A stretch of 64,000 nt of DNA, taken from positions 1 through 64,000 of the forward strand of contig SUST01000004.1 in assembly GCA_015063285.1 (NCBI GenBank), in the 5' to 3' direction. The stretch comes from Thermoplasmata archaeon. Lineage in GTDB: Archaea; Thermoplasmatota; Thermoplasmata; Methanomassiliicoccales; Methanomethylophilaceae. The position numbers and the translations under genes are program-made. Shown here in pieces: positions 9,032-28,237 of the stretch (the stretch's first letter is position 1; the number at the start of each line of letters is the position of its first letter). A model generated the notes under the pieces. The model did no database searches, was not told where the DNA came from, and saw nothing but the letters and a program-made list of their open reading frames with translations.

Positions 9032-9091
9032 GTTTTCAACTCGTTTTGGGCCCGGTTTTCAATAACGGATACCGGGAACGTCGTTCGAATG

Positions 9092-9301
9092 CTATTTCGG
9101 GATGGCCAGAGCTATCGCTGAGACCATCATGAGTGCGTAGATCAGGAGAGGGAGCCAGTAGGCCTCGAAGAACTGGCTGAAGTCGAGACCGGAGACGTAG
9201 GTGACGCTGTCAGAGTCCTTGGTCAAGTAGGAGATACCCAGGTCGATGCCGATCCAGGCCAAAGCCGAAGCTATCGCCGGGATTATCGCAGGGAGCACCA
9301 T
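9092..9301 (-). CDS. Two-TM small membrane protein, 69 aa, ending at an amber codon
   Basis: The start at 9301 has AAGGAGGTG upstream and overlaps the preceding stop (TGATG). Hydrophobic segments lie at about 3-21 and 48-66, with a short polar loop between. It stops at TAG (9092-9094), the only amber stop found for a gene in this window; reading through would add ten further sense codons before a TGA. Size and topology fit a major coat or envelope protein of a pleomorphic, spindle-shaped or filamentous virus, but no family is recognised. Confidence 0.62.
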   Translation of the reverse strand: MVLPAIIPAIASALAWIGIDLGISYLTKDSDSVTYVSGLDFSQFFEAYWLPLLIYALMMVSAIALAIPK

Positions 9302-24692: not shown

Positions 24693-26129
24693 ATGTCATT
24701 CGATTTCGATTCATTCATAGATATGGTCTGGGAGTTCGACGATTATTTTTGGTTCATACCATTGGTATTGATAGTCGCTCTCGGTCTTTATTCCACAGTG
24801 AAGTTCAGGGCGGTCCAGTTCACCGAGCTCAAGGAGATGTTCAAGGTAACGTTCTCTTTGGAGAAGAGTGTCCGGGACAAGATCACCCCCTTCCATGTGT
24901 TTTGTGTGAGCATGGGCAACCGTATCGGTGTAGGAAACATCGTGGGACCTATCACCGCTTTGATCTTCGGAGGGCCCGGAGCGATCTTCTGGATGTGGAT
25001 CTTCGCCACGTTGGGTGGAGCTACGAGTTTCGTGGAGACCACGGTCGGACAGATCTTCAAGAGCAAGGATGAGAACGGGGATTTCATAGGAGGTCCCGCC
25101 CATAATGTGGCCAAAGGATTGAACTCGAGGAAACTCGGTGTGATCATCGCTGTTCTCATGATCGCTGTGTACATCGGCGGTTATGTCCTTTCGGAGATCA
25201 CAACGATCTCCTCATCGTTCAAAGGAGCTTACGATTTCTAGTACAATACGCTCGTTATCGCAATCATCCTCGCAGTCATCGCTGTTCTTGTTGCGATAGG
25301 CGGTTTCAAGGGCGTTGCCAAAGCATCGGTCCTTCTCGTTCCCTTCATGGCGTTGGCATGGATCATATTGACCTTGGTGGTCATCCTGATGAATGCGGGC
25401 GGCATTCCCGACGCCGTGGCCTCCATATTTACATGTGCGTTCAATGTGCCCTCGGCAGTCAGCGGAGGCATCGGTGCCATGATCGTATGGGCATTGAGGA
25501 GAGGTGTATGGTCCAATGAGGCCGGAGAGGGTACCATCACCAACATCTCATCATCGGCCAGCGTTCCACATCCGGTCAAACAGGGTCTATCGCAATCCAT
25601 CGGTGTCCTCTTCGATACCCTTGTCAGCACGATGACTGCTCTGGTCATCCTATGCTACTTTAGTGGAGACTACGACGCGCTCGCCGCATCCGCCGCATCA
25701 TTTGATAACAGTTCGATGCCGATGCTGCAGTATGTGATCGGTGAGTCTATTGGAGGTATAGCTCCGACGTTGGTGTTCATCTTCCTCTTCCTGTTCGCGA
25801 TCACATGTTTCATGGGAGATTACGTCATAGGTATGAACAATCTGAAGTTCATCACCCAGGATAGGAAGGTCAAGATCGCATTGGTCATAATCACGATAGG
25901 CATCGTGTTCTTCTCCGCTTACTCCGGTTCGGAGGGATTGTACGCCATCATGGATGTCCTGTTGGGGGTCTGTGGTATCGTGAACTGTTTCGTGATGTTC
26001 AAGCTCTCGAAGTTCGCATTCGAGGCGTTCAAGGACTATCGCAGGCAGAAGGCAGAGGGAATTGAAGATCCCGTGTTCCACAAGAGTGTCCTCTCGGATC
26101 CATCCGGTGTGACCGAGTGGGACGACTGA
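24693..26129 (+). CDS. Sodium:alanine symporter (AGCS) with in-frame amber codon, probable pyrrolysine protein
   Basis: 478 codons if TAG at 25239-25241 (codon 183) is read. The first part holds GNRIGVGNIVGPITALIFGG and the second GVWSNEAGEGT, both family hallmarks, so each half alone would be an incomplete transporter. The reading frame is kept exactly across the amber codon. Total length fits AGCS proteins, which import alanine or glycine with sodium. The amber codon follows YDF at the end of a loop before a membrane helix. UAG decoding as pyrrolysine is known in Methanomassiliicoccales. A nonsense mutation or sequencing error is the alternative. Confidence 0.82.
25239..25241 (+). other. 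In-frame TAG, candidate pyrrolysine codon
   Basis: Amber codon at position 183 of the AGCS gene, followed by 295 sense codons in the same frame with family-specific motifs. All but one of roughly 65 other genes checked in this window end in TGA or TAA, the bias expected where UAG has a coding meaning. Confidence 0.65.
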
Positions 26130-26686: not shown

Positions 26687-28237
26687 ATGCATTGGGCAGA
26701 TGTAATCGCACAGGAAGTAGCAGATACATGCGAGCACCCGTTGATCGCAACAGGTATCAGTCCTACCGGAATCATACATGTCGGAAGTCTCAGAGAAGCG
26801 ATCACAGGAGAATCGATCCGCAGCGCAGTCGCATCCAAGGGAAAGGATGTCAGGCTCATCTACTTGATCGATTCGTTCGATCCCCTCAGGAAGAGGTATG
26901 AGTTCCTCCCCGAGGAGTACGAGAAGTATGTCGGTATGCCTATCTGCATGATCCCCTGTCCTTGCGGCAAGCATAACAACTATGCCCATCACTTCATCCA
27001 ACCTTTCTTGGATGCGGTCGATTCCCTGGAGGTCCACTGCGAGATCGTATGGACCCATGAGCTCTATGCCAAAGGGGAGTTCGCCAAGTGGATCGACATG
27101 ACAATCACCAAAAGGCCCGAGGTCATCCAGATCATCCATGAGGTTACAGGAAAGGACGCAGATCCCAATTTCTCGCCTTACGATCCGCTCTGCCCAGATT
27201 GCGGACGCTTCTGCAAAGCAAACTTCGACACCTATGAGTTCCCGTACCTCGAGTACAGCTGTAAGTGCGGTTCCCACGGAAAGGTCGACATTAGGAAGAT
27301 GGAGGGAAAGCTCAAATGGAGGCTCGAGTGGCCTGCCAAGTGGATGATCTTCGGAACATCCGCGGAACCATTCGGAAAGGACCATGCGGCGGCCGGAGGA
27401 TCCTACGATTCCGGAAAGAGGCTCGTATCCGAGATCTTCGGAGGAAAGGCACCCTATCCGATCCCCTACGAGTTCGTCCAGCTCAAGTCCGGCGGACAGA
27501 TCGTGCAGATGCACAAGTCCCTCGGAAGTGCGGTCACAGGTCTTGACGCCATCAACATGACTCCTCCAGAGGTTCTCAACTACCTGTTCCTCAGGTCGCA
27601 GCCCAACAGAGCTATCGATTACGATTACGGAATGGGGCTCCTCGACATGGTCGATGAGTACGACAGGATGGAGAGGGCATACTTCGCGAACGAGTTCACA
27701 GAGGCGGAGGAGAACAACGTCGCCGCCTATGTCATCGCACAGCACAACCATGTTCCCGAGAAGCTCCCGATGCAGATATCCTACAGGCATCTGGTCAATG
27801 TCGTCCAGATGACCAAGGACTTCGATGGAGTGATCGAGGTCCTCGGAAGGACCGAGGACATGTCCAAAGCGACTGATTTCGATCTCAAGAGACTCCACGT
27901 CAGGGTAGACTGCATAAGGTTCTGGCTGGCCAATTTCGCACCCGAGAATGTGAAGTTCTCCATTCAGGAATCCGTTCCTGCCGACATAGCGCTCAGCGCG
28001 GACGAGAAGGGATACTTCAAGACCCTTGCGGAGAAACTGAAGACGATCGGATGGAACGCTGACGAGATCAATTCAGCCGTAACGGAAGTTGCCAAGGACG
28101 GAATTGGGAACAAGGGCGCATTCAAGGCCATGTACAAGATCCTCATCGGAAAGAACATGGGCCCCAGACTCGGACCGTTCCTGGCTAGCATGGACAGGCA
28201 GTTCGTCCTCGACAGGCTCAAGCAAGCGTCTCAGTGA
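26687..28237 (+). CDS. lysS: Lysyl-tRNA synthetase, class I
   Basis: 516 aa of the archaeal class I LysRS, which charges tRNA-Lys. The HIGH-equivalent is HVGS at about 28-31 after TGISPTG; zinc-type Cys pairs occur in CPDCGRFC and CKCG. The C-terminal alpha-helical domain is complete. The KMSKS-equivalent reads QMHKSLG, departing from the usual K-M-S in its first and third positions. It leads an apparent operon with a small membrane protein and an HD-domain protein, with overlapping or touching ends. Confidence 0.92.
   Translation: MHWADVIAQEVADTCEHPLIATGISPTGIIHVGSLREAITGESIRSAVASKGKDVRLIYLIDSFDPLRKRYEFLPEEYEKYVGMPICMIPCPCGKHNNYAHHFIQPFLDAVDSLEVHCEIVWTHELYAKGEFAKWIDMTITKRPEVIQIIHEVTGKDADPNFSPYDPLCPDCGRFCKANFDTYEFPYLEYSCKCGSHGKVDIRKMEGKLKWRLEWPAKWMIFGTSAEPFGKDHAAAGGSYDSGKRLVSEIFGGKAPYPIPYEFVQLKSGGQIVQMHKSLGSAVTGLDAINMTPPEVLNYLFLRSQPNRAIDYDYGMGLLDMVDEYDRMERAYFANEFTEAEENNVAAYVIAQHNHVPEKLPMQISYRHLVNVVQMTKDFDGVIEVLGRTEDMSKATDFDLKRLHVRVDCIRFWLANFAPENVKFSIQESVPADIALSADEKGYFKTLAEKLKTIGWNADEINSAVTEVAKDGIGNKGAFKAMYKILIGKNMGPRLGPFLASMDRQFVLDRLKQASQ

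Follow-up and report, generated by a model that had tools for sequence, protein, structure and literature searches.

Does a TAG triplet in the middle of a transporter gene end the protein, or does it stand for an amino acid? The question is raised by a gene of the AGCS family of sodium:amino acid (alanine or glycine) symporters (24693–26129, + strand) within a stretch of 64,000 nucleotides, here called the window, which lies on contig 4 of a draft MAG of the Methanomethylophilaceae (1.79 Mb, 33 contigs); the source samples of relatives of this organism were rumen, omasum and gut. Translated, this region runs for 478 codons from an ATG to a terminal TGA. The one TAG inside it, codon 183 (25239–25241, +), is most likely decoded as pyrrolysine. 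The part before the TAG, residues 1–182 (24693–25238, +), has predicted helices up to residue 179, and the part after it, residues 184–478 (25242–26126, +), holds the conserved SNEAG motif. The explanation that we consider very probable as a whole is that the full-length symporter is made by placing pyrrolysine at a TAG which is recent and near neutral.

The read-through protein gives one continuous match to PF01235 (residues 57–462, E-value 1.7e-106) and a match to TIGR00835 (agcS) of 323 bits, above the cut-off of 272.65; both span the TAG. The claim of the earlier note that hallmarks of the family stand on either side of the codon in the same frame is borne out by these one-frame matches and by the length of 478 codons. 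Since homology crosses the TAG in one frame, chance is ruled out, and the in-frame TAG is confirmed as real in the assembly. The nearest homologue, which has no stop, is 80% identical across residues 1–478, full-length homologues range from 47 to 80% identity, and the columns S274, N275 and E276 are invariant in the alignment. The solved structures of AgcS (PDB 6cse and 6csf) belong to the same family; 6cse, the Methanococcus maripaludis protein, could be aligned over residues 8–454 (E-value 1.1e-51), and differs from the present gene in having an ordinary amino acid at the position aligned with 183.

Read by the standard code, the TAG would end the protein after residue 182, and the gene would be dead or would specify a fragment. 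That the genome holds a second AGCS copy without TAG (contig 12, 2110–3513; 42% identity) fits such a truncation; against it, the gene contains no further stop or frameshift, and a TAG lies inside both mtmB copies of the organism as well. Lineage-private changes, polarised by the majority outgroup base, were also counted, a crude method by which the part after the TAG has 44 synonymous and 24 non-synonymous changes as against 26 and 33 after the site in a TAG-free sister; before the TAG the figures are 27 and 8, and in the sister 14 and 18. By this crude count the downstream part appears to be under purifying selection, with no signs of decay, and a pseudogene is very unlikely.

The residue facing position 183 in 31 homologous sequences is E in 21, D in six, Q in two, and A and H in one each. 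GAG is the codon in the two homologues of highest identity, and the two Q residues are each encoded by CAG; both triplets are one base from TAG. Independent occurrences of TAG at this position, which the earlier note had thought worth counting in an alignment, did not appear once the alignment was run: TAG is absent at the site from every aligned homologue other than this gene. Among the matches listed from 147 genomes of the order, no AGCS gene has an internal TAG besides our own and a homologue in one other genome (G024, contig 54, locus L054), where the TAG replaces a mostly conserved Trp at 273, adjoining the SNEAG motif. It is codon 13 of a fragment that begins at a contig end, and may be genuine or may have arisen in assembly. 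A stop flagged in a further homologue (L026) was set aside, as it falls at residue 2 of the match.

In the methylamine methyltransferases MtmB, MtbB and MttB, pyrrolysine is conserved and catalytic. The symporter resembles them in having an in-frame TAG that would be read as pyrrolysine, and a TAG-bearing mtmB is found in its own genome; it differs from them in that site 183 is variable and lies in a loop. Unlike in the methyltransferases, pyrrolysine is not conserved here across the homologues, and such conservation is not required of every protein that contains this residue. Given this variability and the lack of the TAG in all homologues, a special role for pyrrolysine at 183 is unlikely. 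An AlphaFold2 model, computed from 29 aligned proteins with Lys modelled at 183 instead of pyrrolysine (mean pLDDT 84.1, pTM 0.86), places the residue in a five-residue turn between helices 146–179 and 185–233. Site 183 would accordingly be a variable polar residue in a turn between two predicted membrane helices.

As the TAG is unique to this AGCS gene, the claim rests on one base of the MAG consensus. The true codon could be GAG or CAG, and the TAG a one-base artefact of assembly or consensus; the assembly is a draft of 33 contigs, and the closest homologues have exactly these codons, one base off. How TAG behaves in the rest of the genome bears on this directly. An error of this kind would not favour TAG over TAA or TGA. 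The stops of the 70 genes called in the window are TGA in 63 cases, TAA in five and TAG in two, of which one is the AGCS gene itself, in agreement with the earlier remark that TAG is almost unused as a stop here. The second of the two is a small ORF of 69 residues (9059–9301, − strand), in which ten more codons lead to a TGA; its TAG may be a real stop or may open a short pyrrolysine extension.

Stop use was sampled over 419,443 bases (23% of the genome) with standard-code gene calls of coding score >10, giving 375 TGA, 42 TAA and 10 TAG. The same frame codes on directly after the stop in seven of the 10 TAG cases, in 16 of the 375 TGA cases and in only one of the 42 TAA cases, the last of which speaks against consensus error. 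The excess for TAG is significant against both TGA (Fisher p 1.1e-7) and TAA (6.8e-6); window-based coding counts on either side of each stop were too noisy. In the 16 TGA-ended ORFs the extension is most probably a separate gene that comes next in the same frame. In this sample, TAG behaves as a sense codon. A 2025 paper reportedly describes archaea in which every TAG codon is read as pyrrolysine.

The seven TAGs that are read on fall in six genes: those for CobN, a Na/Pi cotransporter, the AGCS symporter, MtmB, a DUF5817 protein and a 149-residue protein of no clear family. MtmB has its TAG at codon 202; both mtmB copies of the organism carry one TAG, as do 57 of the 59 matches in the genus among those listed, the other two being fragments. 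The cobN gene (contig 4, 104850–108593, − strand; locus L118) has in-frame TAGs at 734, where 8 of 11 homologues have Q, and at 906, where all 11 have TGG (Trp). Pyrrolysine at 906, where Trp stands elsewhere, may not be neutral. CobN-like genes are numerous in the genus, where one genome can yield as many as 11 matches, and internal TAGs also occur in several cobN copies of five other genomes (G054, G055, G061, G062 and G065); one CobN homologue (L127) has a TAG of its own where all others have Lys. TGA flags in the two cobN homologues with a readable locus (L120 and L123) were discarded, the TGA being in each the end of the gene and not internal.

The Na/Pi cotransporter, with a PhoU domain (contig 4, 112748–114421, + strand; locus L040, 8748–10421), has its TAG at codon 397 and joins the AGCS symporter as a transporter of this genome with a TAG inside the gene. 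The DUF5817 protein, a zinc-ribbon protein, has a TAG at 51, and a NADAR protein has one at 64, within the family match. That several of these internal TAGs lie inside family matches in one genome likewise argues against a consensus error at codon 183, which we regard as unlikely. A possible ORF of 92 residues that matches no family contains two TAGs at a distance of three codons (contig 2, 60144–60422, − strand). Most TAGs face codons one base away, and the sites are not common to the genomes compared, so that chance mutation to a tolerated codon fits better than selection for pyrrolysine at given sites.

The genes that make pyrrolysine are present in this genome. PylB (439.7 bits, cut-off 348.2), PylC (312.8, cut-off 248.3) and PylD (192, cut-off 150.05) were all identified on contig 13 (locus L036) above the NCBIfam equivalog cut-offs. 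This contig starts with the last 86 residues of PylS (E-value 5.9e-24), followed by pylB, pylC and pylD in that order; the pylS fragment scores below the curated cut-off, the gene being cut by the contig end, and its first two thirds were not found elsewhere in the genome. In the family, pylS was found in 75 of 102 genomes. A covariance model was made from 11 pylT genes taken from relatives. In 22 of 24 loci of relatives it places pylT approximately 100–200 nt before the pylS match, one locus being cut by a contig end; in the present assembly it finds no pylT, the best match reaching 28 bits against 81–96 for the full-length genes of relatives. The position at which pylT would be expected falls outside contig 13, past its end, and the failure to find the gene in the assembly is therefore no sign that the cell is without it. 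The best three of the weak matches in the genome (28 bits or less) are 75–77 bases long, which suggests ordinary tRNAs. A match to a tRNA-Pyl DNA pattern on contig 18 (268–296) was rejected, since ARAGORN calls no tRNA there and the place shows no pyl gene.

In principle a TAG can be read by another suppressor or a near-cognate tRNA, with Gln or some other standard amino acid put in, and the failure to recover pylT would suit such a tRNA. The presence of pylBCD with part of pylS and the position of the contig end are against it, and we consider this reading highly improbable; an ARAGORN search of the 64-kb window found no tRNA of any kind there. The earlier note had raised pyrrolysine in the symporter and had tied it to the pyl genes, of which pylB, pylC, pylD and the last third of pylS were found and pylT was not recovered. 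Pyrrolysine nevertheless is the best reading at 183, because of pylBCD and the partial pylS, the TAG in both mtmB genes and the general read-through of TAG.

In the sequence of events that we propose, the ancestor would have had a Glu or Gln codon at 183 (GAG or CAG), which a recent change turned into TAG. With TAG stops nearly gone, UAG would work close to a sense codon; tRNA-Pyl would be charged with the pyrrolysine that PylBCD make, and the ribosome would place it at 183, giving the whole transporter. The change was probably near neutral, since it falls in the short turn that joins two membrane helices, at a position open to various polar residues. We infer that tRNA-Pyl is present and charged, that pyrrolysine is inserted at 183 and that the product functions in transport. 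That the TAG is a switch, by which the complete symporter would appear only under ample pyrrolysine and amino-acid uptake would be tied to methylamine metabolism, is scarcely to be expected. The suggestion that amino-acid uptake depends on pyl function would apply only if the cell needs this symporter, and a TAG-free paralogue is present in the genome.

The earlier view that pyrrolysine in a transporter would be unusual did not hold: TAGs are found in the cobN, Na/Pi cotransporter, NADAR and zinc-ribbon genes of this genome, and 16 candidates outside the methyltransferases have been put forward in Ca. Methanomethylophilus alvus, one of them a transporter family protein, AGI86346.1 (Borrel 2014, PMC4153887). 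In that paper, TAG makes up 1.6% of stops in Ca. M. alvus, half of its in-frame TAG genes have TAG-free homologues, and an in-frame TAG is argued to become a stable mutation in such a cell (PMC4153887). The present organism, another species, resembles a related lineage of the same order in its rare use of TAG as a stop and in a transporter with an in-frame TAG; it differs in that an AGCS symporter is not named in the available portion of the Ca. M. alvus list. The rumen methanogen ISO4-H5, of the same order, has 46 TAG-containing genes (PMC5011839), and is similar in having TAG inside ordinary genes besides those of the methylamine methyltransferases, with the difference that the available text of its description makes no mention of an AGCS symporter among them.

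The AGCS TAG is therefore a further instance of a habit known in these archaea and no new principle; it is not exceptional for the lineage, and a special role at the site is improbable. The list of candidate pyrrolysine proteins in methyl-reducing methanogens gains a membrane transporter, in a lineage where TAG lands in ordinary genes such as those for AGCS, CobN, the Na/Pi transporter and NADAR. Standard-code annotation truncates or splits such genes, and protein lists for these archaea consequently need TAG as sense. If pyrrolysine does stand at 183, it would support a drift of UAG towards a sense codon that does not depend on each site having a use for it. The neighbour just 3′ of the symporter, a class I lysyl-tRNA synthetase gene (26687–28237, + strand), with a Sec61-beta gene on the other strand lying between the two, is noted here without any suggestion that it is linked to the TAG.
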